The position numbers and the translations under genes were made by a program. The notes beneath the pieces are model-generated. The model was not told the DNA's origin. It saw only the letters and a program-made list of their open reading frames with translations, and made no database searches. A stretch of 64,000 bases of DNA from Nitrospira sp. (GTDB taxonomy: Bacteria; Nitrospirota; Nitrospiria; Nitrospirales; Nitrospiraceae), in assembly GCA_005116745.1 (NCBI GenBank), contig SWDS01000002.1:294919-358918 (forward strand), given 5' to 3'. Numbering within the stretch: position 1 is the stretch's first letter; every line of letters begins with the position of its first letter. This document shows, piece by piece, positions 11,205-33,749 of this stretch.

Positions 11205-11240
11205 TAAAAAAAAGAGGAGGCAGGTTTCCCCACCCCCTCC
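11205..11240 (-). terminator. Rho-independent terminator of the respiratory operon
   Basis: Read on the minus strand, a GC-rich stem (GGAGG ... CCTCC with extra inner pairing) is followed directly by C then eight T residues. It lies about 40 bases after the stop of the last cytochrome gene and before mobA, closing the oxidase operon. Confidence 0.75.
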
Positions 11241-11277: not shown

Positions 11278-13050
11278 CTACAGCGTCTTTCCCTTTTTCC
11301 TGTTTGCGCGACGAGTCAGAACCCAACCCTCCAGCAGTACCACTCCAACAGCGATAACAACTGGATAGATGTACGTTTCCTGAGGAACCGGTGGATTCAT
11401 AAAGGTGTAGTAAAATGCGGACACCGCCATCTTTCGTCCTGCATCACCATTGTGACCATCCCACGCAAAGAAGACAGTGGGAATATATTGACCCACTTCA
11501 AAAAAGGTGTCTTCATCGTAATCCTGGTCTTTTTTATTTCCTACGGGCCGCTGAATCATGACATACCAGCGACCATTCTTCCATTCGCTCTTTACGAGCT
11601 TCATAGCCTCTTCGTAATTATCGCGCTCTTCAAAATCCTTATCCCAGCCTGTACCTTTAAAAGCACGAAGGGAGCCGTCAGCTTCCCACTTCACGATATC
11701 CATAGGGTACTGGTCGTTCGTCCCAAAGAGATAACGAGGCTTAATTGGAGCCGGCAACTCTTTCCACTTCACCGCCGTCTCAATAGCAATTGCGTCATTA
11801 TAGACGGTGTAATTGTTTTGTTTCATCGCGATGGACCCTTCCTCGCCAGTCTTGGGGTCCTGCTCTTTCACATCGATATTAACCTGGGTTGGAGCCCAAG
11901 GGAGCTTCCCTTCGGCGACACTCTTCGTTCGATCATCCCACTCAAGGAGATAGACAATATATTTGTCATTGTAGAGCGACCGAACCCAGATATCATCGAT
12001 TCGATTAACAAAGTTTCTTGGCTTATGGGTGATCTGTCCCCCCATGGCCACAAGCCGCTTTGGAGCCTTTTGCCAAGCCTCATGCTCAATCTCAGCCGGG
12101 ATTTCCCCCTCAACGAGATCTGAGGGGATGACGAAGTTGATCTTAGGCTTATCGGTTAAGGGATCAATGGGCAGTGGATTACCCAATGTATCCCTTTCAC
12201 ACAGCGAACTGACAAAGTTGGCGATATCCCACCGTTCATCGACAGTCGTGTTATCAGCAAACGATGGCATCGGTGTGCCATTTACACCCGTAGAAAAAGT
12301 ACGAAAGATGTTGGCGACATTGTACGGATCTTGACGACTCCCCCTGAAGTTCCAGCACTTATGCCAATTGGCCGGTTGGATCGAGAAACCCCAGTCATCC
12401 TTTAGATTGAAGGCGTTTCCATCGCCACGCCCTTCCATTCCATGACATTCGACACACTTTCTCTCGACGATCAACTCGCTTCCCCGCTTCTTACTTTCGT
12501 CAGTGGCTGGTTTAGGCTTAAGTTCAGCTAGTTGTAAAATCGTCTGTGTTTCTGACTGCTTATCGGTAAACTTTCGGTCTTTCACGAGTTGGGTCGTAAC
12601 AAAAGAGAGGACTTGTAGGCGCTGTTCCTCGCTCAAAATCCCTTCCCAAGGTGGCATGGCAGAACCCGGCAATCCATGCGTGACCGTTTCAAACAGATCA
12701 TTTTGTCCAGCTACAGGTTTCTTAGCATCGAAAAGTGGGAGTTCGCCGCTTGCTGTATGGCGAATTTTGAATGTGCCTTGATTAAAATTCCGCGGGCGTG
12801 GCCAAAGCCGGTCGGCTCCAGGTCCATCACCGGCTCCATCCACTCCATGACACCACACACACTTGGTGAAATAGACTCGCTTCCCTGCTTCAATCATTTC
12901 TGCTGACGGTTCAGGCGCAAGATCACCCTTCTTAAAACCCTCGGGAAGCCCTTGAGCAGAAACCGACGAATACCCAGCACTCGACACTAGAACCACTCCG
13001 AAGGCAGCAGCCGCGATGATCCCGGCCTTCTGAGTTATACTTTCCATCAT
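11278..13050 (-). CDS. Diheme cytochrome c fused to ethylbenzene-dehydrogenase-like heme domain
   Basis: About 590 residues from ATG 13050. A signal sequence is followed by two heme c domains with CVWCHG (about residue 64) and CVECHG (about 199), each with a possible Met ligand region (GSAMPPWEG and GTPMPSF). The rest resembles the heme-b-binding gamma-subunit family of ethylbenzene dehydrogenase and of the nitrite oxidoreductase candidate NxrC. A single C-terminal membrane helix anchors it. It probably carries electrons in the periplasm towards the bd-like oxidase encoded upstream. GAGG lies six bases before 13050; in-frame starts at 13062, 13071 and 13143 exist, the last overlapping the previous gene. 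The domain call is by motif and context, not by alignment. Confidence 0.85.
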   Translation of the reverse strand: MMESITQKAGIIAAAAFGVVLVSSAGYSSVSAQGLPEGFKKGDLAPEPSAEMIEAGKRVYFTKCVWCHGVDGAGDGPGADRLWPRPRNFNQGTFKIRHTASGELPLFDAKKPVAGQNDLFETVTHGLPGSAMPPWEGILSEEQRLQVLSFVTTQLVKDRKFTDKQSETQTILQLAELKPKPATDESKKRGSELIVERKCVECHGMEGRGDGNAFNLKDDWGFSIQPANWHKCWNFRGSRQDPYNVANIFRTFSTGVNGTPMPSFADNTTVDERWDIANFVSSLCERDTLGNPLPIDPLTDKPKINFVIPSDLVEGEIPAEIEHEAWQKAPKRLVAMGGQITHKPRNFVNRIDDIWVRSLYNDKYIVYLLEWDDRTKSVAEGKLPWAPTQVNIDVKEQDPKTGEEGSIAMKQNNYTVYNDAIAIETAVKWKELPAPIKPRYLFGTNDQYPMDIVKWEADGSLRAFKGTGWDKDFEERDNYEEAMKLVKSEWKNGRWYVMIQRPVGNKKDQDYDEDTFFEVGQYIPTVFFAWDGHNGDAGRKMAVSAFYYTFMNPPVPQETYIYPVVIAVGVVLLEGWVLTRRANRKKGKTL

Positions 13051-13106
13051 GTTTGGCCTCATAATCTTCATTATGTCTAGTTTGGCATTCTTAAGGAATA
13101 TGGCGA

Positions 13107-14144
13107 CTAATCCCAGGTTCGCGGATAGTAGCCAGTGTGCCAATATTCAAACAACACAACCTTCCAAATTTCATCAACCGTCAGGTGTTGCTCCCATGGC
13201 GGCATAACTGATGCCCAGGGGAATCCTTCGTTGGGCAACCCAATTCCACCCTTCGAAACACGCCAAAAGATAAATGTTTCTTGCAGCTGTGCGATTGTGC
13301 CAGGATCCGTAAAGTTTGCCGGAATTGGATTGAAGGCAAAGGCGTGGAGCCCTCGACCATTCAAATTATCTCCATGGCAAAAATGGCAGTTCTGAAAGAA
13401 TATCTCACCACCCTCTCGCACATACTTTAGGTAGCCCTGATTCTTATCATCCCACGGGTTGGCATTGGGCTTCATCAAACGCCCCATGCCCTGTTCAACA
13501 ATATTGGCATTCGTGAACTCTTGATCGTATTTCCCTTCTGGATTCACACGATAGGGGTTCTGAGAGGTCTGTAACGTATAGGTCTTCCCGTGGACCTTCG
13601 TACTTGCAGGCGGTGCTGGATGAACCGTTCGTAATTCGATTGGTTCCTCAGACTTTGGCATCATGGCATTAAATGAAAATCCTCCGATGAGGATCGGCAG
13701 GAGCACAAGATACAGATACCGCAAGAGCCGGTTCCCCCCTGTCTGAGCATCAAGAACGTTCATGATGGGTTGCTTAAACTTCTGCCAGTCCTCTTCACTT
13801 GCGGAGACCCACATGAAAACTGCCACCAATGACACTGTGCCATACATGGCTCGCACGCTGAATGGGATAGGCGGGTACATACGGTACTTCAGATAGAGCA
13901 GAAAAAATACCCAGAAACCAATGCCCTGCCAAAACCGTGGAATAGCCATACCCATGGCATTCAACGTATAGCTCAATCCCGTAAAGCCGATCACATAGCA
14001 TGCCACTTCGAGCAGCATTTGAATCGGCATGTAGCCTTCCACCAACCGTATGTAGGTTGAAGGAACGACATCAAGAACCATTCCGCCCAGAAGGAGAAGA
14101 CCAGCCACTCCGATCAGGGCACCGAGCGACATCAACGCTTTCAT
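13107..14144 (-). CDS. Five-helix membrane protein with C-terminal cytochrome c domain
   Basis: A 345-residue protein with about five predicted membrane helices (around 8-28, 46-66, 73-88, 100-118, 144-163), then a periplasmic cytochrome c domain with one heme motif CHFCHG at about residue 253 and a downstream VMPPWEQHLT, which probably supplies the axial Met. Start ATG 14144 is preceded at seven bases by AAAGGGAG; an in-frame TTG six bases upstream leaves no room for that site. It lies between two other cytochrome genes and behind the bd-like oxidase, so it is probably an electron donor or structural subunit of that complex. I do not recognise the membrane part. Confidence 0.88.
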   Translation of the reverse strand: MKALMSLGALIGVAGLLLLGGMVLDVVPSTYIRLVEGYMPIQMLLEVACYVIGFTGLSYTLNAMGMAIPRFWQGIGFWVFFLLYLKYRMYPPIPFSVRAMYGTVSLVAVFMWVSASEEDWQKFKQPIMNVLDAQTGGNRLLRYLYLVLLPILIGGFSFNAMMPKSEEPIELRTVHPAPPASTKVHGKTYTLQTSQNPYRVNPEGKYDQEFTNANIVEQGMGRLMKPNANPWDDKNQGYLKYVREGGEIFFQNCHFCHGDNLNGRGLHAFAFNPIPANFTDPGTIAQLQETFIFWRVSKGGIGLPNEGFPWASVMPPWEQHLTVDEIWKVVLFEYWHTGYYPRTWD

Positions 14145-14189
14145 CGGCAAACTCCCTTTACTCTCCGCATGACAAACACTCGGAGGCTA

Positions 14190-15494
14190 CTATATTTTTG
14201 GTGGAGCCGATCCGGTTTTCACCTGAGATAAATAATCGACAATTTTTTTCAACGCGCCAGCACTCAGCTTTTGTCCAAAGACTTTGGGCATCGTGTTATC
14301 TGGGAACGGCTTCACCACATAGGCACTGGGGTCTACAATAGACTCCATAATGTATTCGGCAGGTGACTTGGCTGTTCCCTTATAAGTAGGATCCTTAATA
14401 CGCTGCGGAGCTGTTGTCCCTTCTTCCAGTTTAGGCCCGATGGTGCCCACCGCTCCTGGGATGCCAGGGATCGTATGACATGAAATGCATTGCCCTTTGG
14501 CAAAAATCTGGTCAATCGGCTCTGTTCCATCGGCCATCAGGGATGTGGCTCCCGCAGGCTTTTCATCGGCCTGCTTAGGACGATCTGCCTCTGGAACAAA
14601 CTTCTCGTACGACTTTACAATCTCTTCAAACGACGGAGCATCTATTCCTTCACGCAAATACATCCAAGTATCCACAGCCGCAAGCTCTGCAAGACTGAGG
14701 GAGATAGGCGGCTTATGAATAGAAGGCATAGGACTCTGCTTGTCATTCGTTCCCTTTACCCCATAACCAGCGACCACATAGCAGCTAGGGCATGCGTGCG
14801 ATTCCGCAATGTACTCTTGCCCATTTTCTGCAGTTCCAGAGCCTGGGAAAGCCTCTTTCACCTCATAATCCCTCTTGGAAGGATTACCCTTGGAATACTT
14901 GGGATCCTCTATTCGTTCTTTCCCTCGTCCAGGGAGCCCTGCTAAGTTTGGTGCTCGTTCACCCAACATACCAGCATGGAATGCATGGCAAAGCGGACAT
15001 TGGCCCTTCCCGATTGCGCCTTGCTCTTTATTCTTCCCAACACCGCCAAAGATAATCTTTTCGCCTTCATCGGCTAGCTGTTGTGGGGTCATCGAATCCC
15101 ACGTCTTCTTTTCCTCTACCGGCGGGAAACCACCCTCGACTTGAGGAAGCCAGTTTCCATAGCCGGATAGAAACGCAGCGACAAAGAACATCAGCCCCCC
15201 GATCTTCAAGAGAGCACTGAGGTTGGTGAAATACAGCGCCATAACAAAGGTGCTTACCGTAATAATCACCAGTGATACTGGCAGAAGCCGATTTTGACCG
15301 TAGAAATTATTCGCATAGTTCGCGATAGCCATAAACAGCAAAAACGTCGCAATAATGCCGATGAATGTTTTGAAAACTGCGCGCTTCTTTGCTGCAGGAT
15401 CGCTGATCGATACCTGAAAATAAACCAATAACCCGGCCAGGATAGCGAACGCCATCCAGCCCATGGAGAGTGCCTCTGCAATCATGTTACCCAA
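14190..15494 (-). CDS. Four-helix membrane protein with two cytochrome c domains
   Basis: A 434-residue protein with about four N-terminal helices (10-28, 43-61, 70-90, 98-112) and two cytochrome c domains. Heme motifs are CPLCH (166-170) and CISCH (336-340). The second domain has DNTMPKVFG as its probable Met ligand region. In the first domain a CPSCY element (235-239) sits where the second domain has VDPSAY, so it is not a heme site but an extra CxxC pair. GGAGGT lies seven bases before TTG 15494 and sixteen before ATG 15485, which favours the TTG start. It directly follows the bd-like oxidase gene and probably delivers electrons to it. Confidence 0.88.
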   Translation of the reverse strand: MGNMIAEALSMGWMAFAILAGLLVYFQVSISDPAAKKRAVFKTFIGIIATFLLFMAIANYANNFYGQNRLLPVSLVIITVSTFVMALYFTNLSALLKIGGLMFFVAAFLSGYGNWLPQVEGGFPPVEEKKTWDSMTPQQLADEGEKIIFGGVGKNKEQGAIGKGQCPLCHAFHAGMLGERAPNLAGLPGRGKERIEDPKYSKGNPSKRDYEVKEAFPGSGTAENGQEYIAESHACPSCYVVAGYGVKGTNDKQSPMPSIHKPPISLSLAELAAVDTWMYLREGIDAPSFEEIVKSYEKFVPEADRPKQADEKPAGATSLMADGTEPIDQIFAKGQCISCHTIPGIPGAVGTIGPKLEEGTTAPQRIKDPTYKGTAKSPAEYIMESIVDPSAYVVKPFPDNTMPKVFGQKLSAGALKKIVDYLSQVKTGSAPPKI

Positions 15495-15569
15495 GGTCTT
15501 GACCTCCTACAGCTACAACGCGTGGACTGAGCCCCCACCATTGAGCCGACTAACAATAACCAACGTCCA

Positions 15570-17486
15570 TTAATGACTGGCTGCCGGCTGCGGGACACCG
15601 CCAGGAATTCCAGCCTTAGATTCAACCGGAACCTTCTTCGCACCCAAGCTGCCAAGCCAGAAGACAAATAGGATCGTGATCCAAAAAAACAAAACATTGA
15701 ATGAAATCATGTTGGCCGCAAATCCCACCGTATGAGTGTACGCCCATGGCGAGTTATCTCTCATGATCTCATTGACGTGCCAGAAGAGCCTGACTGACGA
15801 GCGAATATAACCCATCAAACCCATCATCCAAGTAAAGGCCGTTGCTAACATAATGAGCGCATACTGAGAGCGGGCTGAAATCTTTCCCCACTCAATCGGC
15901 CCTATTTGTTTAGCCCCCTGCATCATCACGCTATTGAGAGCAAACATAAAGAATAGACACGACAGTGTGGTCGCCACCTGAGGAACAGACAAACCAACGC
16001 GAACGTTTGCTGGAATGTAATATCCATATATCGCTAGAAAAATAATATTGAAGTAGGCGGCACCGAAAAATATGCCCATAAAGATATTACCGAATTTCGC
16101 CCACGATACGGTGGAAACTTTGTTTCCCCTCATGTACCAGACGAAACTCAGTACAGTGGTTGTAATAATGACATTGATCCCACCGTTTTTCGCCGACATG
16201 ACTCCATAATTTCCCAAAACGGGATGCTGCTGCCCTCCCATGGCCTTCAATTCAGCCGGGGTCATGACCATGGTGTGAGGGGTAATAAAGACCATGTATC
16301 CGCAGGCAAGGATGAAAACAAGGTACTTAATATAGCGTTGGTACTTTTCGGCACCACGCATGCGGCCCATTGCCTGCCAGAGATAATAGTTCGTGCTCAG
16401 AAACAGAATCCCAATCATCGTAGCTTGGATAATAAACAGCCAGGCAAGCAGACCACCCATCAGCGTGATGCCCATCTGCTGACGATAGGCATACACTTCT
16501 CGCATGAGCCAATAGCCTGCAAATGGCAACGGGATCAAGAATGCCACACCGAGCGCCATGGCAATGTAGCCCATCCAATCATAATGAGCCCGATCCTCAT
16601 CGGTCTTAGATGCCAAAAATTTATAGGCAGCATAGGCAGCGACAACGCCACCGCCGAATGCCATATTGCCAAGAATGCGATGCAGATTGAGAGGGTTCCA
16701 TAAGGCAGTGTGGATCACATGCCAGATATTTCCAAGATACCGCCCCTGCTCATCGACGCCAGCAGGCGACATCATGAAACCAATCCAGGAGTTCGCCAGG
16801 AACATCAGCAATGTGCCGATGATATTCAAGATCACCGACATGCTCAGATGAATCCACTTCAGGAACCCCTCCCTCATCTTGTCCCAGCCGTAATAGTAGA
16901 TGTAAAGAGTTCCGCTCTCGGCCACAAACATCAATGCATAGATATGCATGACGGGACGGAAAATACCTGACAGATAAGAGAAAAACGCTGGATATAAGGT
17001 CAGAAAGGTAAAGATGAGAATACCACCAAGGATAGCCGTGAGAGAGTATGCCGTCAGGCTGATCTTAATGAAGTCATAGGCCAGCTGATCATAGCGCTTG
17101 GCGAGCGCCTTATCCTTCGTCACGACACCCATGAACTCGATGATCATGCAGAAGATCGGCACGGCCAATACGAAGCTGCCATAATATAGATGCTGCTGAT
17201 TGGCAAACCAGAGCAATACACGGCTTTCAAAGTTGTATCGCGGGTAGTCCCTGGGACCATCCACCGTTTTAGGGGCGGGAGCACCGACGACAATGCCCTC
17301 GGTTTTGTAATAGACATCTCGACCCTTTTCAACCTTGTCTCCATCCTTCTTAGCCGCATCGCCAGCAGGAGCCTCTTCACCGATTGCCAGTGAAGGTAAC
17401 GCTACGACGATCGGAAGCAGAAGGAGGCCAACCATCATGCAGAGCGCCATAATCGAAAAGACGCGCTTGCCGGCTAAAAGGCCCAT
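15570..17486 (-). CDS. Cytochrome bd-like oxidase subunit, first copy
   Basis: A 638-residue polytopic membrane protein, much longer than CydA and with about 14 helices. CydA-like landmarks are FANQQHLYYG with His near 99 (high-spin heme region), AESGTLYIYYYGWDKM with Glu near 190 (compare the ES-GWDR segment of CydA), ANSWIGFMMSPAGV, and NPLNLHRILGN with His near 269 (low-spin heme region). Unusually it begins with a signal-like helix and a soluble segment of about 50 residues. Start ATG 17486 has AAGGAGGT five bases before it. No CydB gene is adjacent; three cytochromes c follow instead, so a cytochrome c rather than a quinol may be the donor. Oxygen reduction is inferred from homology. Confidence 0.85.
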   Translation of the reverse strand: MGLLAGKRVFSIMALCMMVGLLLLPIVVALPSLAIGEEAPAGDAAKKDGDKVEKGRDVYYKTEGIVVGAPAPKTVDGPRDYPRYNFESRVLLWFANQQHLYYGSFVLAVPIFCMIIEFMGVVTKDKALAKRYDQLAYDFIKISLTAYSLTAILGGILIFTFLTLYPAFFSYLSGIFRPVMHIYALMFVAESGTLYIYYYGWDKMREGFLKWIHLSMSVILNIIGTLLMFLANSWIGFMMSPAGVDEQGRYLGNIWHVIHTALWNPLNLHRILGNMAFGGGVVAAYAAYKFLASKTDEDRAHYDWMGYIAMALGVAFLIPLPFAGYWLMREVYAYRQQMGITLMGGLLAWLFIIQATMIGILFLSTNYYLWQAMGRMRGAEKYQRYIKYLVFILACGYMVFITPHTMVMTPAELKAMGGQQHPVLGNYGVMSAKNGGINVIITTTVLSFVWYMRGNKVSTVSWAKFGNIFMGIFFGAAYFNIIFLAIYGYYIPANVRVGLSVPQVATTLSCLFFMFALNSVMMQGAKQIGPIEWGKISARSQYALIMLATAFTWMMGLMGYIRSSVRLFWHVNEIMRDNSPWAYTHTVGFAANMISFNVLFFWITILFVFWLGSLGAKKVPVESKAGIPGGVPQPAASH

Positions 17487-17546
17487 GGAATACCTCCTTG
17501 ATACGCTTACGTTAAGATTCACAAGTTACTGATAATGCCAGACCAC

Positions 17547-17560
17547 AACCTCTAGAGGTT
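17547..17560. promoter_or_regulatory. Perfect 14-base palindrome before the oxidase gene
   Basis: AACCTCTAGAGGTT is a perfect palindrome without a spacer. It touches the stop of the 43-residue peptide gene and precedes the oxidase ribosome binding site by about 50 bases. Its function is unknown; a dimeric regulator site or an RNA processing hairpin are both possible. Confidence 0.4.
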
Positions 17561-17691
17561 CAATTCCGGAAGAGGTACCAGAAATCCAACCCCTGCATGT
17601 CCATAAGGTAGTGATCGACAAAAACAAAGTACCCAACCGAGATAATAAGAGAGACAATCACTGCGACAACAGGATTATTCAGCGCACTCAT
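17560..17691 (-). CDS. 43-residue single-span membrane peptide
   Basis: A short gene starting at ATG 17691 (MSALNNPVVAVIV) with GGAG eight bases upstream. It encodes one hydrophobic helix (about residues 7-26) and ends FWYLFRN. It lies 73 bases before the bd-like oxidase gene on the same strand. Small single-span subunits such as CydX and CydH accompany cytochrome bd oxidases; by position this could be an analogous subunit, although I see no sequence match to CydX. A longer in-frame reading from about 17751 lacks a good start and would overlap nothing else. Confidence 0.65.
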   Translation of the reverse strand: MSALNNPVVAVIVSLIISVGYFVFVDHYLMDMQGLDFWYLFRN

Positions 17692-17769
17692 TTCTTTCTT
17701 CTCCTCTGCCACCAAGTCCAGCTGTTGATTAAACTGTACCGCCCCCGGCAACTACACAAGACCTTCAAC

Positions 17770-17892
17770 TCAACAGGGGCACTGGATACCGGCAAACCAA
17801 TAGAAAAACCATAATCCAACAGCACAGGTGATGTAGAAAATCATCTTCCCGATTTTTACTTTAATTTCGCTGTCAGGGGCTGCCGTTGCCAT
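17770..17892 (-). CDS. 40-residue single-span membrane peptide with C-terminal CPC
   Basis: An ORF of 40 codons with ATG at 17892 and GGAG ten bases upstream. It reads as a charged N-terminus (DSEIKVKIGK), one strongly hydrophobic aromatic helix (FYITCAVGLWFFYWF) and a short tail ending IQCPC at the stop. It is the first recognisable gene of the minus-strand oxidase operon, followed by the 43-residue peptide and the oxidase. Base use and tight arrangement suggest a real gene. By context it could be a small oxidase subunit or assembly factor; the CPC end could hold a metal or a disulfide. No function can be assigned from sequence alone. Confidence 0.6.
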   Translation of the reverse strand: MATAAPDSEIKVKIGKMIFYITCAVGLWFFYWFAGIQCPC

Positions 17893-18025: not shown

Positions 18026-18130
18026 GTGACGAAAAACTCAAAAGTGTTTGACATTATAGTTTTGGTCGGAATGGTTGTCAATATCATTTTGGCCGTGTTT
18101 TTGATCCTCTACCACTTTGATCTTCTGTAA
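18026..18130 (+). CDS. 34-residue membrane peptide, divergent from the oxidase operon
   Basis: A GTG start at 18026 lies five bases behind a strong AGGAG, with a consensus-like promoter upstream. The product is MTKNSK, then one helix of about 22 residues (VFDIIVLVGMVVNIILAVFL) and the tail ILYHFDLL. The last 47 bases overlap the 3' end of the SUMF-domain gene that runs towards it. This is one of few plus-strand genes in the first 28 kb and sits between the two oxidase gene runs. The function is unknown. The evidence for a real gene is the matching promoter, ribosome binding site and clean helix within a very short frame. Confidence 0.6.
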   Translation: MTKNSKVFDIIVLVGMVVNIILAVFLILYHFDLL

Positions 18131-19031
18131 CTTTATCCTGATTGTTCTTTTCTTCTTCTCTCATTCCCGCCTTCGAAATCGCGCAGCGAAATCCGATCGT
18201 CTCATCTCGAAAATCAGGCATCATTTTGCTTCGACTGGTAATTCGAACATCACCTCCGGTCGTCGTATAACCTCCGCCGCGAAGCACCCGATAGGTGCCA
18301 TACTCGGGACTCGGTGGGTTCTGTTCCGGCGAGCGCTTGTAGTATGTCTCATCATACCAATCGTCCACCCACTCAATGGCGTTCCCTGCTCCATCCATCA
18401 CACCATAAGGGCTCGTATCAGACTGAAAGCTCCCCACAGGCGCAGATACCTCATACCCATCCTGCACCCTGGCCCAATTAGCACCACTGGCCTGCTCTTT
18501 GGTCCCCCATGGCCAGAGCCGTTCGTCACCGCCTCGCATCGCCTTTTCCCATTCCGCTTCCGTCGGAAGTCGCTTCCCCTTCCAGCGGCAATACTCCATA
18601 GCATCATCCCACGAGACGTAGACGACCGGCTGATTGGTTCCCTTCACCCTTCCACCGCTCTTGGCGTAACGCGCAGGCAACCCTGGCTTCCGATGGCCGG
18701 TCGCCGAGATGAACTGCTGATAGTAATGATTCGTCACTTCGTACCGATCAATAGAAAACGCGTCCAAGTGGATAGTTCGCTGCGGCCCCTCATCGAACCC
18801 CCCACTCTCGGTGCCACGAACAAACGGCCCCGCCGGAATCGTCACCATCTCATCCGCAATAGGCTCCTCGCCGGGAACACTCTCGGGTGCCGACTCAACG
18901 TCAGCATTGGCTCCAGGCATCGGCGCTTCATAGGGAGTCGAAATCGTACCACGCATAATGGCGACGATTGGCATGGCAGCACAAGCCAGTACCACGAGCA
19001 GAAAGACGAATTTAAATTTCGATTCCAGCAT
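18084..19031 (-). CDS. Membrane-anchored SUMF-domain protein, copy 2
   Basis: A 315-residue protein with an N-terminal signal anchor (about 8-26), a linker rich in Pro and Glu, and a formylglycine-generating-enzyme-like (SUMF1) domain. Typical segments are VTIPAGPFVRGT, VSWDDAMEYCRWKGKRLPTEAEWEKA, YGVMDGAGNAIEWVDDWY and the closing IGFRCA. The two closely spaced catalytic cysteines that bind copper in true formylglycine-generating enzyme are not seen in the RGGGY...SRSK region, so that activity is unlikely. The C-terminal tail is charged. It lies 14 bases behind a related gene (19045-19956) and is the last gene of the second oxidase run. A periplasmic scaffold or assembly role is possible but unproven. 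Confidence 0.85.
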   Translation of the reverse strand: MLESKFKFVFLLVVLACAAMPIVAIMRGTISTPYEAPMPGANADVESAPESVPGEEPIADEMVTIPAGPFVRGTESGGFDEGPQRTIHLDAFSIDRYEVTNHYYQQFISATGHRKPGLPARYAKSGGRVKGTNQPVVYVSWDDAMEYCRWKGKRLPTEAEWEKAMRGGDERLWPWGTKEQASGANWARVQDGYEVSAPVGSFQSDTSPYGVMDGAGNAIEWVDDWYDETYYKRSPEQNPPSPEYGTYRVLRGGGYTTTGGDVRITSRSKMMPDFRDETIGFRCAISKAGMREEEKNNQDKVTEDQSGRGSKTRPK

Positions 19032-19044
19032 GCCGGTCTAAGAC

Positions 19045-19956
19045 TCAGGAGCCCCCTCCTACTAGATCAAGATCGCTTGCACAGCGAATACCAATCGTGA
19101 CATCCGTCCGCCAATGTTTCGCGGTAAACCGCTTTGACAGTCTTGCATTATGTTCTGTTTCTCGCCATGAGCCGCCGCGCACAACTTTGAGATCAGCATT
19201 CTCCGGTCCCTTAGGGTCTCTAAATGGTGACTTCTTGTAGTAGTGTTCGTCATAGGAGTCCTCGACCCATTCAGCGACATTGCCTGTCATGTCGTAGAGG
19301 CCGTAGGGGCTTCGTCCCCCGTCGAACGACCCAGGCGGAGCGATGTATTTATATCCGTCCTCGCTGCCGTCGACATTGGCAGCAGCCGTAACAAACTTCT
19401 CCCCCCACGGATATTTTCGCTTGCTCTCGCCACGCCCAGCCTTCTCCCACTCAGCTTCCGTGGGCAATCGCTTGCCGGCCCACTTGCAGTAGGCTACCGC
19501 TTCGTCCCACGAGACACTCATCACCGCAAACTCCGGTTTCAAAACCTTCGACTGATCATCATCGAATACCTCGATTCTCGGCATCGCTCGCTTGGTCATC
19601 TTCGCGAACCGCGTATACTCCTCTTGTGTGACTTCTTTTCGGTCGAGGTAGAATCCCTTCAGGTAGACCTGATGCTCTGGCACCTCGTCCGGATCACCAT
19701 CATGACTCCCCATCGTAAACGGACCTTCCGGGATCTGAACCATCTCCCGGCCCTCATCTCCTATTTTCGTCTTATACATCGAGAAATCCTGAGAAGGCAG
19801 ACCGCTCGCCGTCGGTCGAGCTTCTGACTTCACTGATGCCGCGAGCTGTTTCATCTGCTTTGCCTTATAGGACTCATAGGCCAGCAGGCCAATCATGAGA
19901 AAGAACGATGTAAATACAAAGACGATGGACCCGACTAAGACACCCTTGTTTTCCAC
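19045..19956 (-). CDS. Membrane-anchored SUMF-domain protein, copy 1
   Basis: A 303-residue relative of the next gene. It has an N-terminal signal anchor (about 8-27) and a SUMF1 domain with VQIPEGPFTMGS, VSWDEAVAYCKWAGKRLPTEAEWEKA, YGLYDMTGNVAEWVEDSY, VVRGGSWRE and IGIRCASD. As in its neighbour, the paired active-site cysteines of formylglycine-generating enzyme are not visible; the segment after RGGSWRE continues to ARLSKRF instead. The pair probably arose by tandem duplication. It is exported and anchored, facing the periplasm, and follows the DUF3047 and glycine-rich membrane protein genes in what looks like one operon with the second bd-like oxidase. Confidence 0.86.
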   Translation of the reverse strand: MENKGVLVGSIVFVFTSFFLMIGLLAYESYKAKQMKQLAASVKSEARPTASGLPSQDFSMYKTKIGDEGREMVQIPEGPFTMGSHDGDPDEVPEHQVYLKGFYLDRKEVTQEEYTRFAKMTKRAMPRIEVFDDDQSKVLKPEFAVMSVSWDEAVAYCKWAGKRLPTEAEWEKAGRGESKRKYPWGEKFVTAAANVDGSEDGYKYIAPPGSFDGGRSPYGLYDMTGNVAEWVEDSYDEHYYKKSPFRDPKGPENADLKVVRGGSWRETEHNARLSKRFTAKHWRTDVTIGIRCASDLDLVGGGS

Positions 19957-21046: not shown

Positions 21047-22924
21047 CTATGTTTCCTGCGAGGGAACCGGTGACAACAAGGGCACCTGCTGCTCCTCGAA
21101 TTCCTCACCCATCACTGGCCGCTGCCCCCGTTCACACATCCAGAACAAGACAAGTACAGCGGCCCAGAAGACCACCATGTTGAGCGTCACCATTTTTGTG
21201 GCATATTGAAGGTCCGGGGTAAAGGCCCAGGGCGAGACATCCGCCATCAACTCACTCACATGCCAGGACAGTCGCCCTGATGAACGAATATACCCCATCA
21301 AGCCCATCACCCAACTGAAGGACGCCGCTAACCCAAACAATCCCACCATGCCACGCAGCGGAATTTTCCCCCACTGAATCGGGCCGTGCACCACCGCGCC
21401 TCGAAGCATGAGGCGGTTCATCACCACACCGAGTACGATGACTGTGAACGTCGTGAACGCCTGGGGGGCGGATAGGCCGACGCGAACCTTCGCAGGCAAG
21501 TAAAACCCGTAGATCGACAGCCAGATGATATTGAGCGCCCCGACCACGTACAACACCGTGAGGAGCGTATTCCCGGTCTTGATCCAGGAAATGGTCATCG
21601 TCCGATTCGCCCGACGATAGTACAAAAAGCTCAACGCCGTGACGAGAATCAGGATATTCACTGCTCCGTTCTTGGCCGACATCACTCCATAGTTGCCAAT
21701 CACGGGATGCTGAGCACCGCCCATCGCCTTGACTTCACTGGCAGACGTAAGCAGCGTGTGAGGCGTCAGCCAGACGAAGAGCGCCAGCATCAACACCCCC
21801 AATAGGAATTGATAATAGGGCTGATAGCGCTCACCACCTTTGATCCGCCCCATGCTCTGCCATAGATAGTAGTTAATCCCCAAAAACAGGACGCCGATCA
21901 AGAGTGCCTGAACCACAAACAGCCAGGTGAGCAAGCCACCCATCATCGTGACACCCATGGTCTGGCGAAACACGAACACCGACTTCATCAGCCAGTAGCC
22001 GGCAAACGGCATGGGAATCAGTGCAAACACTGTCACAAACAGAAAGATATAGCCGACCCAATCGAAATAGGCCCGCTCCTCATCCGTCTTGCTGGTGAAA
22101 AACCGATAACAGGCATAGGCCAATACCACCGCGCCACCAGACATAATGTCCGCAAGGAAGCGATGGACGTTCAGCGGGTTCCAGAGCGCGGAGTGCAGCA
22201 GATGCCAGGCATTTCCCAGAAACCGCCCCTGCGCATCCACCCCAGCGGGTGACATCATGAAGGCCGACCAGGCATTGGCCATCATCAATAACGCGGTTCC
22301 CACAATATTGGTCAGAATCCCGATCGCGGCGTGAATCCACTTCATGCCCCGACCCGTCATCCGATTCCATCCGTAGTAATAGACGATCAGGAGCAGCGAT
22401 TCTCCCACAAATACAGCCGCGTAGGCGGGCATGAACCCTTTGAAAGTTCCGCCCATATACTTCATGAAACTGGGATACAGCGTGATGAACATCGTCAGCA
22501 TCAGGCTCCCGATAAGCGCGGTCACCGACATAGCCAACACCGCCACCTTGGCAAGATCTCGTGCCAATCCGTCATAGCGCAGCGCCAAGGCTGGTTTTTT
22601 GGTGATCAATCCAAGGAATTCGAGCAGTGCACAAAACAAGGGCAGTGCAAGGACAAATCCACCAAAATAGGTATGTTGCTGTGTGATGAACCACACCACC
22701 AACCGACTGTCTAACGAACCGATTCTCGGATAGACCGTTTCATCAGGAGCAGGAGCTGCTGGTCCCTGCGGAGTCCCCTCCGTGCCGAAGTACACATCCG
22801 TCGATGATTCCGCGAATGACAGATCGGGTCCATTCCACGCAAGCCCAATGACGATCGCAACCATCGCAATACCCATCGCAACGGCAATCGAGGAACGTGT
22901 CATCATCAAGAATCCTCGGCCCAT
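21047..22924 (-). CDS. Cytochrome bd-like oxidase subunit, second copy
   Basis: A 625-residue paralog of the oxidase at 15570-17486, sharing its length, the leading signal-like helix and the same landmarks: FITQQHTYFGG (His near 84), VGESLLLIVYYYGWNRM (Glu near 175), ANAWSAFMMSPAGV, NPLNVHRFLAD (His near 254) and AMGGAQHPVIGNYGVMSAKNG. It differs where the first copy has RPVMHIYALMFVAES; here the His is replaced (MPAYAAVFVGES). No cytochrome c gene follows; instead DUF3047, a glycine-rich protein and two SUMF proteins follow and an unknown membrane protein precedes. ATG 22924 has AGGGG upstream; an ATG at 22906 is also possible. Whether it reduces oxygen is uncertain. Confidence 0.83.
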   Translation of the reverse strand: MGRGFLMMTRSSIAVAMGIAMVAIVIGLAWNGPDLSFAESSTDVYFGTEGTPQGPAAPAPDETVYPRIGSLDSRLVVWFITQQHTYFGGFVLALPLFCALLEFLGLITKKPALALRYDGLARDLAKVAVLAMSVTALIGSLMLTMFITLYPSFMKYMGGTFKGFMPAYAAVFVGESLLLIVYYYGWNRMTGRGMKWIHAAIGILTNIVGTALLMMANAWSAFMMSPAGVDAQGRFLGNAWHLLHSALWNPLNVHRFLADIMSGGAVVLAYACYRFFTSKTDEERAYFDWVGYIFLFVTVFALIPMPFAGYWLMKSVFVFRQTMGVTMMGGLLTWLFVVQALLIGVLFLGINYYLWQSMGRIKGGERYQPYYQFLLGVLMLALFVWLTPHTLLTSASEVKAMGGAQHPVIGNYGVMSAKNGAVNILILVTALSFLYYRRANRTMTISWIKTGNTLLTVLYVVGALNIIWLSIYGFYLPAKVRVGLSAPQAFTTFTVIVLGVVMNRLMLRGAVVHGPIQWGKIPLRGMVGLFGLAASFSWVMGLMGYIRSSGRLSWHVSELMADVSPWAFTPDLQYATKMVTLNMVVFWAAVLVLFWMCERGQRPVMGEEFEEQQVPLLSPVPSQET

Positions 22925-24096: not shown

Positions 24097-24588
24097 CTAT
24101 TTTGAAGCGGCCATCCCAAAATACTTCGCTTTGATCTCTTCCATCAGCGACACGGTGATGCGAGACAGTCCGCGGTCGGCTGCGGTACGCTCAAGTTCAA
24201 TCCGTGCCATGGCACGAACCGCCGCCGGCACTCGATCTAACCGCAGTTTCGCCTCCGGGTCCCATTCAATACGTTCCCCAGTTCGGGGACGGAGCAGCGT
24301 CTCATATGTGACCACCCGCTCGCCTTGACGACGAATATCCTGCTCCACTTCTTCTCGAACCAGCCCAGCCACATACGGCGGCATACGCTCCAATTGATGC
24401 AAGGCCTCATCAGTCCAGAGCAACCGATCAACGAGGCCGTGGGCCTGTTCTTCCCGCACATCGACACCGACTTTCAGCCCACAGCCACGGCATTCCGAAC
24501 GGATAAACCATAACAGCAGACCGGTCTCTCCACCTCGCTCCTCAATCCCCTCCGTATGCATCCATCGACCACAGCCACAGGTCAGCAT
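24097..24588 (-). CDS. Protein with cysteine motif and two PCP_red domains
   Basis: About 163 residues from ATG 24588 (MLTCGCGRWM), which has GGAG eight bases upstream. The N-terminal part has CGCG and ECRGCG, a likely zinc or iron-sulfur knuckle. Two copies of the PCP_red domain follow, a helical unit known from the C-terminus of protochlorophyllide reductase subunit ChlB: WTDEALHQLERMPPYVAGLV and WDPEAKLRLDRVPAAVRAMA, the second ending in the usual AKYFG. The organism shows no sign of phototrophy here, so the domain is used for something else. Stand-alone PCP_red proteins occur widely without known function. The gene lies between the oxidase run and a DUF420 gene. Confidence 0.78.
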   Translation of the reverse strand: MLTCGCGRWMHTEGIEERGGETGLLLWFIRSECRGCGLKVGVDVREEQAHGLVDRLLWTDEALHQLERMPPYVAGLVREEVEQDIRRQGERVVTYETLLRPRTGERIEWDPEAKLRLDRVPAAVRAMARIELERTAADRGLSRITVSLMEEIKAKYFGMAASK

Positions 24589-24597
24589 TGCCGATAC

Positions 24598-24674
24598 TCC
24601 AAGACTGAGCAATGAGGACTGAGTGAATAGCCGAGGGATGCCTTTCCCAAAACTCCTCTACCCTCAGCACTCAT
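24598..24674. repeat. Intergenic dyad repeat, copy B
   Basis: On the minus strand it begins GAGTGCTGAGGG and ends CTCAGTCCTCATTGCTCAG, matching the arms of the copy at 24003-24093 but with a different, longer centre. The arms are complementary to each other, as in REP-type repeats. Confidence 0.5.
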
Positions 24675-24679
24675 GCCAT

Positions 24680-25396
24680 TCATCCGATCTTCCCTGGATA
24701 CAGGATGTACAACATCGTGTACGTGAAGCTACCCGTGACGAACAGCACACAGTAAATAACCATCGTAAATCGGCCGAGCGCGCGATGCCGCCGCGCGCCA
24801 TCTGGCCAAATCCGTTGAATCGTCATCTCAATCGCAAACACAAAAGCCACGATGGCGAGAAAGATCACATACACTTCCAGCTTCCGCATCGAAAACCCTG
24901 CCGTGGCGACACGCGAAAAAAACAACCCAAGCACGACCATGGCAATTCCGCCAAAGATGAGGCCGATCTTCTTCCACGTCGTGAGCAGCCGTGATTCCCG
25001 TAAGGATCGGACTCCGTCGAGGAACTGCTGAGAGCGAAACCCCAACACAATCATATACACCGCCATGATCAGCCCAATCATGACGAGAATGATATGGAGC
25101 GTCAGGACGGGGATGAAGACATAATCATAGAGCGACTGCGAGCCACCAAACCCTTCCTTACCTTCAAACGCCAGGACCCCCAGCTGCCGAAACAGATAAT
25201 ACGCGATAAAGAAGCTGAGCATGGCAATCATGCCACCCAACATCAACCAATGGTGTGCATCGGCCTTTCGCCGACGAGCTTGGAACCATCCCATGATGAA
25301 CAGCCCGGTGAAGAGCGTCGCCATCAGCTGACTGAGGTCCGCACCCGCCGTCGCATACGTTCCAAAGAAGCCTGGTTCCCGTAACCAATCCAGCAT
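24680..25396 (-). CDS. DUF420 family membrane protein (CtaM/YozB-like)
   Basis: A 238-residue protein with about six helices. It has the DUF420 pattern: ADAHHWLMLGGMIAMLSFFI, AYYLFRQLG, YDYVFIPVLTLHIILV with conserved histidines, and a C-terminal GRFTMVIYCVLFVTGSFTY. Members of this family (CtaM in Staphylococcus, YozB in Bacillus) are needed for maturation of some heme-copper oxidases. The first about 25 residues and the region 130-175 are extensions. Its place near two bd-like oxidases fits a role in oxidase or heme handling, though it is separated from them by the PCP_red gene and two dyad repeats. Function is inferred. Confidence 0.75.
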   Translation of the reverse strand: MLDWLREPGFFGTYATAGADLSQLMATLFTGLFIMGWFQARRRKADAHHWLMLGGMIAMLSFFIAYYLFRQLGVLAFEGKEGFGGSQSLYDYVFIPVLTLHIILVMIGLIMAVYMIVLGFRSQQFLDGVRSLRESRLLTTWKKIGLIFGGIAMVVLGLFFSRVATAGFSMRKLEVYVIFLAIVAFVFAIEMTIQRIWPDGARRHRALGRFTMVIYCVLFVTGSFTYTMLYILYPGKIG

Positions 25397-25468: not shown

Positions 25469-26455
25469 CTACAGCTTCGTGCCTTGCGCCACTGCCGTCT
25501 TCTCCAACTCCACAACAGAGACAAACCCGGCGGCTTGGAGCCATTGCATGGCCTCGCCGGCCCGATAGCAGCTGCCCTGCTGAGTGTTGACAAGGATATG
25601 GACCGCGAACGCGGTCGTCCATGCTGGGCCAGTCCCAGCTTCATCTAGAAATCGATCTTTAATCACCAACCGCCCGCCCGGCGCCAACGATCCGAAGCTC
25701 TTTTTAACCAGATCCTGATTCATCTGAAACGTTTGATAGTGCAAGATATCGGACATCAAGACCACATCGTATGGTCCCCCAAGTTGGTCTCGATTGAAAT
25801 CACCGGGATGCAGGGCGACTCGTGCTTCCAACCCGGCGTCCTTGACCGTTTTTTCCGCCAACTTCAACGTCGCCGGGAGATCAAAAACCGTCGCGTGCAG
25901 TTCTGGATACACCTGGCAAAACGCAATGGCGTTGGTCCCAGCGCCACCACCAAGATCGAGCAACCGCTCGCGGCCACCCAGCTTCAGTCGCTTGGCTAAA
26001 TCAGGACCGCTTTGTTGGCCAATCCGATTGAGCACCGCTAGCACGTTGCTTCCCAACTCGGGATCGGTCTCAAAGACATGGCGATCGACCGCCCGTTTCC
26101 CTGTCCGAATCGTCTCTTCCAGCTTTCCCCAGTTATTCCACTCCGCATCGTGCAGAAGGAGCAAGTGGCCAACATACTTTGGTGACTGCCGAACGAGGTG
26201 TGTCAGCGCCGTCGGCGAGTTGCCATACAGGTCCCCCTCCTTCGTCAGCAACTTCATTGCCACGAGGGCGTTCAAGAGAATATTCAGTGTGTGAGGATCG
26301 GCCTGAAGTCGACCCGCAATGTCCTGGACTGCCTTCGGTCGCTCACTGATGGCAGAAAAAACGTCCAGCTTCACGGCCGTCAGGAGGACTTTGGTCTCCC
26401 AGTAGTAGCCAAGCTGAAAGATTTCTGCGAGTGAGAGCTCTCGTGACACACCCAT
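25469..26455 (-). CDS. SAM-dependent O-methyltransferase with dimerisation domain
   Basis: A 328-residue class I methyltransferase of the plant-type O-methyltransferase family. The N-terminal winged-helix dimerisation domain (LDVFSAISERPKAVQDIAG, LLNALVAMKLL) is followed by the SAM site LLDLGGGAGTNAIAFC, then ATVFDLPATL and DVVLMSDILHYQ, and the late motif LAPGGRLVIKDRFL. These enzymes methylate hydroxyl groups on small aromatic or isoprenoid substrates, or demethylate in a few cases. The substrate is not evident. A second family member lies at 57319-58386. It stands alone, 73 bases before the DUF420 gene. Confidence 0.88.
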   Translation of the reverse strand: MGVSRELSLAEIFQLGYYWETKVLLTAVKLDVFSAISERPKAVQDIAGRLQADPHTLNILLNALVAMKLLTKEGDLYGNSPTALTHLVRQSPKYVGHLLLLHDAEWNNWGKLEETIRTGKRAVDRHVFETDPELGSNVLAVLNRIGQQSGPDLAKRLKLGGRERLLDLGGGAGTNAIAFCQVYPELHATVFDLPATLKLAEKTVKDAGLEARVALHPGDFNRDQLGGPYDVVLMSDILHYQTFQMNQDLVKKSFGSLAPGGRLVIKDRFLDEAGTGPAWTTAFAVHILVNTQQGSCYRAGEAMQWLQAAGFVSVVELEKTAVAQGTKL

Positions 26456-27454: not shown

Positions 27455-28249
27455 TTACTTGATTTCAGCCTTGAGGTTGGCGGAACCACCATCGGCCACT
27501 TCCACCTCAAACTCGATTTTCTTACCCTTGCCAGCGAATGGATGCCAAGCTACCACCTTGTGCTTGCCAGCAGGAACATCCTTAATCTCAAAGGATCCAT
27601 CCTCCTTGGCAACCGCGAAATGCGGGCTCGACACTGGGAGGAAGAACCCTTGCATAAACTCATGCTGGTCACATTGTAACCGATAGTACCCTTCCTTTTC
27701 GGCACCACCACGGAAAGTCACCGGCTTGTCCAGCTTGTCACCCTTCTTCGCAAGACCAATGTTGAAACCGGTTGCCGAGGATGTACCCTTCACCGTGAAA
27801 CTGTGGGGATTGTGAAGCACACCCAGAGTAGACTTGGGATCTTCAGCGTCTGCATCGGTATTTTCGACCTTGAAGGGCCGAGTATTCACAACGATCCCCG
27901 TGAACGGTTGGAAGTCACAGAACGCCGCCACCACTTCCGTGCCGGTATAGCCGTCCATCCAGGCCTTGTCTTCGATGTCGACTACCGCCACCACTGCGCC
28001 CTTCAACCCACCATCCTTGCTCACTTCGATCTGCTTCAAGAACCGCTTGTCGCCATCCATCTTGCTCTTGTCGGGAATCTGGGGACAAAACTTTGGATTG
28101 GGGAACTTTGAAAAGAGAAATTCCTTATTCTCCGCCTTCCCCGCAAACGTGACCTTCCCACTGATCGTTCCGCCCGCATACGAGGTGAGAGGCGCCGCAA
28201 CCAACGCGACGGCTGCTACACCAAACATGACTGATAACGCACTCTTCAT
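27455..28249 (-). CDS. Exported cupredoxin-like protein
   Basis: A 264-residue secreted protein (signal peptide ending SYAGG). A beta-rich middle part has LHNPHSFTV (His146, His149) and LQCDQHEFM (Cys193, His196, Met199), the spacing of a type 1 copper site (His, then Cys-x2-His-x2-Met). The C-terminus, FEIKDVPAGKHKVVAWHP, is a carboxypeptidase-regulatory-like beta sandwich. A strong AAGGAGG site precedes the ATG and a strong terminator ends the gene, suggesting a well-expressed single gene. It could be a periplasmic electron carrier or copper chaperone. Copper binding is inferred from the residues only. Confidence 0.8.
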   Translation of the reverse strand: MKSALSVMFGVAAVALVAAPLTSYAGGTISGKVTFAGKAENKEFLFSKFPNPKFCPQIPDKSKMDGDKRFLKQIEVSKDGGLKGAVVAVVDIEDKAWMDGYTGTEVVAAFCDFQPFTGIVVNTRPFKVENTDADAEDPKSTLGVLHNPHSFTVKGTSSATGFNIGLAKKGDKLDKPVTFRGGAEKEGYYRLQCDQHEFMQGFFLPVSSPHFAVAKEDGSFEIKDVPAGKHKVVAWHPFAGKGKKIEFEVEVADGGSANLKAEIK

Positions 28250-32024: not shown

Positions 32025-33749
32025 TCAAAACAAGAAATACCGCTGCGCCATCGGGAGCACGACGGCTGGCTCACAGGTCAGTCGCACCCCGTCGGCTGTC
32101 ACGACGTACGTCTCCGAATCAACCTCGATTTTGGGAAGGTAGTCGTTCAGCTTGAGGTCCCGTTTTTTGATATTCCGGCAATTCTTGACCACAGCCACAC
32201 GCTTCTGCAATCCAAGCTTCGTTGGGATCCCTCGATCTAGTCCTGCCTGCGACAGGAAGGTCAGACTGGTGCTGGACAGCGCCCTCCCAAAGGCACCGAA
32301 CATGGGCCGGCTAATAATCGGCTCCGGTGTGGGGATTGACGCGTTCGGATCGCCCATCTGTGCCTGAGCGATAAACCCGCCTTTCAGCACCATTTCCGGC
32401 TTGACTCCGAAGAACGCCGGCTTCCAAAGCACCAGGTCGGCGAACTTCCCGACCTCCACGGACCCAACCTCATGGGCAATCCCATGCGTGATAGCAGGAT
32501 TGATCGTGTACTTGGCCACATACCGCTTGGCGCGGAAGTTATCATTCTGCGACGAGTCTGTCCCCTCATTCGGCGACAGATGGCCCCGCTGGACCTTCAT
32601 CTTATGCGCGTTTTGCCAGGTCCGGATGATGACTTCTCCGATGCGACCCATGGCTTGCGAGTCAGAGGACATGATACTGATCGCGCCTAAATCATGGAGG
32701 ATGTCTTCCGCCGCGATGGTTTCTCGCCGGATTCTGGACTCGGCAAAGGCCACGTCTTCCGGAATTCTTGGATTGAGGTGATGGCATACCATCAACATAT
32801 CCAGATGCTCGTCCATTGTGTTGGTCGTAAACGGCATCGTGGGGTTCGTCGACGAGGGAAGCACGTTCGGCTCGCCGCACACTTTAATGATATCCGGTGC
32901 ATGACCGCCCCCGGCGCCTTCCGTATGGAACGTATGGATCGTTCGGCCCTTGAACGCCTTGATCGTGTCCTCGACAAACCCTGCCTCATTCAACGTATCG
33001 GTATGAATCGCAACCTGCACATCGTAACGCTCCGCCACGCTCAGACAGGTGTCGATCGCTGCCGGGGTCGTCCCCCAATCTTCGTGCAGCTTGAGACCTA
33101 TGGCGCCGGCCTCAACCTGCTCATTCAATCCATCGGGATGGGACGAGTTGCCTTTACCCAGAAATCCAAGATTGATAGGAATACCCTCGGATGCCTCCAG
33201 CATGCGATGGATATTCCATGGTCCTGGCGTACAGGTCGTCGCGTTGGTACCCGTCGCAGGACCAGTGCCCCCGCCGATCATCGTGGTAATGCCAGCCGAT
33301 AGCGCGTCCCAATATTGTTGCGGACAGATGAAATGGATGTGGGTATCAATGCCGCCGGCCGTCACAATATGTCCTTCTCCTGCGATCACTTCCGTTCCGG
33401 CACCAATCTCCATTCCCTTGGTCACATTCGGCATCAGATCAGAATTGCCTGCCTTCCCGATACCAACGATCCGCCCGTCTTTGATCCCGATATCCGCCTT
33501 CACTATCCCGGTGTAGTCGAGAATGAGGGCATTGGTGATGACCGTATCGAGTGCACCGTTCGCGTTCGTCACCCGCGGCGACTGGCCCATCCCGTCTCGA
33601 ATCACTTTCCCGCCGCCGAACACCGCTTCTTCTCCGTACGTCGTAAAGTCTTGCTCGACTTCGATAAGCAGTTCCGTATCCGCTAGCCGGACACGATCAC
33701 CAGTGGTGGGGCCGTAGAGTGAGGCATATTGCCTTCTTGGAATTTTCAC
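32025..33749 (-). CDS. ureC: Urease subunit alpha (catalytic)
   Basis: UreC holds the di-nickel centre that hydrolyses urea to ammonia and carbamate. The 574-residue protein has the first nickel ligands in [14 protein letters not shown], the carbamylated lysine in [12 protein letters not shown], the His ligand in [17 protein letters not shown], the flap His in [13 protein letters not shown], and the aspartate ligand in [12 protein letters not shown]. All catalytic residues are in place, so the enzyme should be active. Its start overlaps the ureB stop by four bases. Confidence 0.98.

Follow-up and report, generated by a model that had tools for sequence, protein, structure and literature searches.

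We hold with middling confidence that an operon in a 64,000-nucleotide stretch of Nitrospira sp. contig SWDS01000002.1 (hereafter the window) encodes a bd-like complex of OR-N type that reduces O2 with electrons from cytochrome c. The operon occupies 11278-17892 on the minus strand, with four large genes and two micropeptide open reading frames (ORFs) separated by gaps of 45-80 nt, and it bears on the open question of how Nitrospira passes electrons from nitrite to O2 without a heme-copper oxidase. The OR-N family of the cytochrome bd superfamily reportedly goes back to Murali, Gennis and Hemp in 2021. The window copy is a further member of the cluster named bd-like_3 with alt_NxrC_2 in N. moscoviensis, with which it shares the four large genes, namely the bd-like gene, two membrane cytochromes c and the alternative NxrC, as well as a bd-like_4 duplicate a few genes away (PMC6606698; papers are cited here from passages of their text). 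During nitrite oxidation N. moscoviensis transcribes the cluster at a level within its top 40 genes (PMC6606698). New here, relative to those passages, are three micropeptides, the spread of the module across phyla, including proteobacteria without NXR, and a link to radical SAM and PCP_red genes of tetrapyrrole type, although absence from the passages is not proof of novelty.

In the mechanism we favor, periplasmic electrons, delivered by NXR here and by other donors elsewhere, would be taken up by the NxrC-like subunit at its c hemes and heme-b domain and relayed by the membrane cytochromes, monoheme and diheme, to the b hemes of the CydA-fold subunit, which would reduce O2. The heme that binds O2 would differ from heme d/b595 in its ligands and may be a purpose-made tetrapyrrole, while micropeptides 1 and 2, and perhaps 3, could act as small structural or assembly subunits, by analogy with CydX of cytochrome bd. 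The direction of flow, the acceptor and the coupling are what we infer around predicted heme-binding modules and a loss of the quinol site that are read from the sequence.

The central subunit, of 638 residues, matches Pfam Cyt_bd_oxida_I (PF01654; 72.7 bits, residues 88-335) instead of PF00115, and is thus not a member of the heme-copper oxidase COX1 family. An AlphaFold model with 71 relatives in the alignment (pLDDT 83, pTM 0.85) recovers the architecture named in the original prediction, a CydA-like protein with a signal-like helix (residues 4-29) and an N-terminal segment (31-57, low confidence), and places the modeled CydA fold at residues 77-618, with extra helices in the C-terminal half. 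CydA is the best match of the model in VIA-align (Z 30-34, ~350 residues, root-mean-square deviation 3.3-3.8), followed by ActF/ActC of alternative complex III (Z about 18-22). A CydB-like function for part of the chain was considered and rejected, as the whole chain aligns to CydA and the CydB matches are partial (Foldseek E 0.02-0.5). The CydA residues H19, E107 and H186 correspond to H99, E190 and H269 and are invariant in the 71 relatives. The quinol loop (Q-loop), for which the original prediction had proposed an alignment to CydA, is gone: its residues are missing, the Pfam match stops at residue 335, and the GRQPW motif is absent from the 638-residue protein, with GYIRSS at its position. 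According to published accounts, Nitrospina and anammox bacteria conserve the cluster, whose quinol ligands are missing and heme b ligands kept (PMC3578206, PMC8026999).

The three cytochromes c described originally are indeed distinct, with CxxCH counts of 2, 1 and 2 and transmembrane-like stretches in all. The third, of 590 residues, is NxrC-like by sequence, its EB_dh domain (PF09459) scoring 38.9 bits, above the 33.3 cut-off, while the type II DMSO reductase heme-b model TIGR03477 matches at E 8e-15, below its cut-off. It resembles the NXR gamma and type II DMSO reductase heme-b subunits in that domain but adds two predicted c hemes and a C-terminal membrane anchor. These cytochromes and the NxrC-like subunit accompany the bd-like gene almost everywhere across phyla. 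With the quinol site absent and these partners traveling with the gene, sequence evidence indicates that electrons probably enter from cytochrome c, not quinol. The original prediction of cytochrome c input is therefore plausible, and had already been proposed in print for bd-like proteins (PMC10839748, PMC8026999); those of OR-N type are thought to use cytochrome c, a view described as unproven (PMC10839748, PMC12342949). The likeness to the OR-N family, as far as the published passages describe it, extends to a CydA homologue lacking a quinol site, cytochromes c alongside, and occurrence in Nitrospirota and Nitrospinota. In our tree all bd-like proteins group apart from CydA, a split above the level of subfamilies. 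As a separate observation, the middle CxxC of the 434-residue cytochrome (CPSCY) ends in Tyr or Phe, not His, class-wide, a conserved lost or altered heme site.

The operon lacks a CydB gene, as predicted originally; the only PF02322 (CydB) match in the genome lies on another contig, beside the canonical CydA, giving this genome one canonical CydAB. No PF00115 (heme-copper oxidase subunit I) match was found anywhere in the genome, and in N. moscoviensis bd-like_3 is strongly and canonical CydAB weakly expressed (PMC6606698), both of which support an O2 reductase. We surveyed 246 Nitrospirota genomes, a carrier being one with a bd-like relative at E 1e-100 or better. Among ten class-level carriers tested for oxidases, eight lacked both PF00115 and CydB (G151, G162, G168, G185, G187, G200, G210, G261), and bd-like proteins were the only oxidase candidates found in them; in G162 this protein is the only bd-like protein at E 1e-40. 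Further support comes from oxidase-type copper maturation genes nearby, namely DUF420/CtaM in the window and SCO genes next to or within the module in several proteobacteria; this genome also contains a weak SCO match that passes its cut-off. DUF420/CtaM and SCO have been linked to oxidase copper handling in Bacillus (PMC13344008).

Several observations weigh against O2 reduction. The CydA residues E99 and E445, which we take to be Glu ligands of heme d/b595 in E. coli, are Y183 and L557 here, invariant in 71 sequences and likewise replaced in the genome's three other bd-like proteins, so that the canonical heme d/b595 site cannot form as in E. coli. For E445 the assignment relies on MAFFT alignments together with a conserved W-x5-G spacing, because the profile-profile alignment to CydA reaches only residue 296; for M393 no counterpart could be fixed by alignment. 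In addition, several carriers outside the class also have heme-copper oxidases, the published favorite for the Nitrospira terminal oxidase is the OR-N1/OR-N2 pair (PMC12342949), which in this genome lies at a locus other than this operon, and anammox bacteria, anaerobes with little use for O2 reduction, are reported to carry the cluster (PMC3578206). Nonetheless, this genome has no heme-copper subunit I and its presumed OR-N1/OR-N2 oxidase carries the same swap, and the replacements alone therefore do not exclude O2 chemistry.

The main rival explanation is a cytochrome c:quinone oxidoreductase, in which high-potential electrons from NXR or other periplasmic enzymes would be pushed uphill onto quinone by proton motive force, much like alternative complex III run backwards. 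We regard this as possible but somewhat doubtful. Two papers have put forward reverse electron flow for the cluster (PMC3578206, PMC6606698), the loss of the O2-site Glu ligands and the reported presence in anammox bacteria, which do not respire O2 (PMC3578206), would fit it, and the organisms with the module include lineages that, judging by their names, are sulfur and iron oxidizers needing reverse flow. The fold also resembles ActF/ActC (Z about 20), however, this lies well below the CydA match and reflects a shared fold only. Moreover, all known quinol-site residues are missing, and a quinone-reducing enzyme should have no need of copper chaperones or of a special heme.

The distribution of the module loosens its tie to nitrite. 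Carriers made up 109 of the 246 genomes, 78 of them from the order of the window's organism (two families sampled), 11 from the rest of the class and 20 from the rest of the phylum. The order FGE, micropeptides, bd, cytochrome, cytochrome, NxrC-like was found in 20 loci of the order, and the core gene order in nine class-level loci, most with the FGE-like gene also. All 11 class-level carriers lack an NxrA match at E 1e-100, so the operon is not bound to nitrite oxidation. A cross-phylum scan of the genome collection returned 555 candidate loci, and the best 80 hold the same module in Alpha-, Beta-, Gamma- and Zetaproteobacteria, Nitrospinota and 'Deltaproteobacteria', the last two cytochromes being fused in many gammaproteobacteria. 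No plasmid record with a relative was found, and since no anammox locus is among these best 80, occurrence in anammox bacteria rests on the papers. The suggestion in the original prediction that nitrite-derived electrons reach O2 is thus weakened on its nitrite side, by carriers without NxrA and the many proteobacteria, and burdened on its O2 side by the two replaced Glu ligands. Because it reaches far beyond the nitrite oxidizers, the module lends itself to study in organisms that use other donors. In alpha- and some gammaproteobacteria (L097:467-6261, L102:66-5792 and similar) we also observed a second, longer bd-like gene (~720 residues) with its own cytochromes and NxrC-like gene in tandem upstream.

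The same distribution makes it unlikely, in our estimation, that the operon is an NXR-specific membrane anchor or outlet with the NxrC-like protein as membrane gamma subunit. The EB_dh/type II heme-b domain and the published name alt_NxrC_2 speak for such a role, and in two other Nitrospirota genomes NxrA-like (~41% identical), bd-like and radical SAM genes are adjacent (G203:C86:28258-36554, G145:C8:10114-19439). An NXR-specific function is nevertheless improbable given the class-level carriers without NxrA and a module found in many proteobacteria without NXR nearby; this locus itself has no NXR catalytic subunits. More improbable still is detoxification with an acceptor other than O2 or quinone, for example nitric oxide, peroxide or an oxyanion intermediate. 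It is suggested by presence in anaerobes according to published passages and by neighboring genes in several gammaproteobacteria and one Nitrospinota contig (L132:1-5210, L135:12811-16724, L139:14076-17836), where two diheme peroxidase-like genes, a Rieske-type subunit and an arsenite-oxidase/iodate-reductase-like large subunit (TIGR02693 over cut-off in L132) flank the module in a layout like idrABP1P2. However, no direct sequence evidence for it was found, and the high expression in nitrite-grown N. moscoviensis suggests a central role (PMC6606698).

The favored O2 reductase would also include small subunits. Both micropeptides of the original prediction are conserved across relatives, and a third lies upstream. 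Profiles drawn from 12-13 loci (peptides 1 and 2) or from three loci (peptide 3) were run against all small ORFs of the 96 loci with at least 1 kb of upstream DNA. Peptide 1 is upstream in 75 of these, on the operon strand every time, peptide 2 in 87, and peptide 3 in 64, of which 50 place it on the strand opposite to the operon; off-site matches in the same loci at E 0.05 numbered 1, 1 and 4, respectively. The seeds were picked by eye and seed-locus counts are not independent, but in a named, mostly independent set the peptides occur in 45/63, 57/63 and 36/63 loci. The ratio of nonsynonymous to synonymous polymorphism (pN/pS) within the order is 0.22, 0.40 and 0.13, the last possibly affected by overlap with other constrained DNA; in the window the peptide 3 ORF overlaps a promoter pattern and the 3' end of the FGE-like gene. 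These predicted micropeptides are under purifying selection and confined to this site. They appear to be undescribed, finding no mention in the published passages on the cluster, and naming them matters as purification or expression attempts could otherwise miss three small proteins. A metal site at the peptide 1 C-terminus (CPC, or His in relatives) was rejected as a general feature because the alphaproteobacterial peptide ends without Cys or His. We also rejected a small upstream ORF on the operon strand, 'MILTTIPAKTIMSN', whose conservation is explained by the promoter and by peptide 3 on the opposite strand. Such single-helix companions, together with the CydA fold and H19/E107/H186, are shared with canonical CydAB/CydX, whereas this operon lacks CydB, the Q-loop and GRQPW, replaces E99 with Tyr and E445 with Leu, and has three cytochromes c and extra helices.

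Tetrapyrrole-type genes accompany the module. Its neighbors in other phyla include a Usp-PCP_red protein, a homologue of protoporphyrinogen oxidase and a radical SAM protein. The last scores 312-324 bits against NirJ2 and 301-317 against AhbD, short of the cut-off of 500 in both cases, and the copy examined with Pfam has a PCP_red domain. At E below 1e-50, 39 of the best 80 loci contain a radical SAM or a Usp-PCP_red gene, while in this genome the two lie side by side, unlinked to the operon, at contig C6 625.8-629.4 kb. Across the 246 Nitrospirota genomes one or both occur in 106/109 carriers versus 5/137 non-carriers (Fisher p 4e-59), and by genus outside the order in 21/22 versus 3/78 (p 2e-17), p-values that are inflated by shared ancestry and come from tables tallied by hand; radical SAM matches in one group (f28 and its kin) are near threshold. 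The PCP_red, BchU-like methyltransferase homologue and DUF420 genes of the window are syntenic with bd-like_4 in the order. A search of the paper library used here found no link between PCP_red proteins and cytochrome bd.

This co-occurrence suggests a dedicated modified heme. Radical SAM/SPASM proteins also modify peptides, however, and AhbD-like enzymes make ordinary heme b, so the gene link is an association and not proof of a special heme. We therefore offer only tentatively, as a minority possibility, that bd-like complexes hold a modified heme other than heme d, matched to the Tyr/Leu pair and made by an undescribed pathway, together with three micropeptide subunits. That pathway would comprise the PCP_red-bearing NirJ2/AhbD-like radical SAM protein, the Usp-PCP_red protein and the protoporphyrinogen-oxidase homologue, with perhaps the BchU-like methyltransferase homologue in Nitrospira. 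If true, this would add a chemically new kind of respiratory heme center, common to nitrite oxidizers and many other lithotroph lineages, and the gene set identified can be tested directly for making the module's heme.

Features of the operon and its surroundings in the window
Feature	Position	Strand	Remarks
Micropeptide 1	17770..17892	-	40 residues, one transmembrane segment, motif K-x-GK-x-IFY...WFFYWF...CPC; conserved
Micropeptide 2	17560..17691	-	43 residues, one transmembrane segment, motif D-x-x-LM-x-x-QGL; conserved
bd-like_3, CydA-fold membrane protein	15570..17486	-	638 residues; Pfam, AlphaFold model, VIA-align
Membrane diheme cytochrome c	14190..15494	-	434 residues; Pfam Cytochrom_C; CxxCH at 166 and 336; conserved in relatives
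Membrane monoheme cytochrome c	13107..14144	-	345 residues; CHFCH at 253; Cytochrome_CBB3
alt_NxrC-like protein	11278..13050	-	590 residues; two predicted c hemes, EB_dh heme-b domain, C-terminal transmembrane segment
Intrinsic terminator	11213..11240	-	12-pair stem and T-run
Sigma-70 promoter-like site TTGACA-17-TATAAT	18053..18081	-	consensus scan, 12/12; pattern match only
Micropeptide 3	18026..18130	+	34 residues, GTG start, motif D-I-I/V-x-x-x-G-M-V-x-N; divergent from operon
FGE/SUMF1-like anchored protein	18084..19031	-	PF03781; directly upstream; syntenic in Nitrospirales and most class-level relatives
Second FGE/SUMF1-like protein	19045..19956	-	PF03781; syntenic
bd-like_4, paralogue of bd-like_3	21047..22906	-	~50% identical
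Protein with two PCP_red (protochlorophyllide reductase) domains	24097..24612	-	PF08369, E 3e-22
DUF420 (CtaM-like) protein	24680..25396	-	PF04238, E 3e-19
BchU-like methyltransferase homologue	25469..26455	-	TIGR02716 E 8e-24, below cut-off
Secreted protein	27455..28249	-	phmmer: family matches near module in gammaproteobacteria and Nitrospinota

The ORFs and the terminator bear out the single minus-strand run originally described. In the order, each complete locus has two FGE/SUMF1-like anchored proteins ahead of the module, possibly with an assembly role. Elsewhere in the window, an Rfam 5_ureB_sRNA match (33310-33599, plus strand, 105 bits) lies antisense to ureC and is probably due to conservation of the urease coding sequence.

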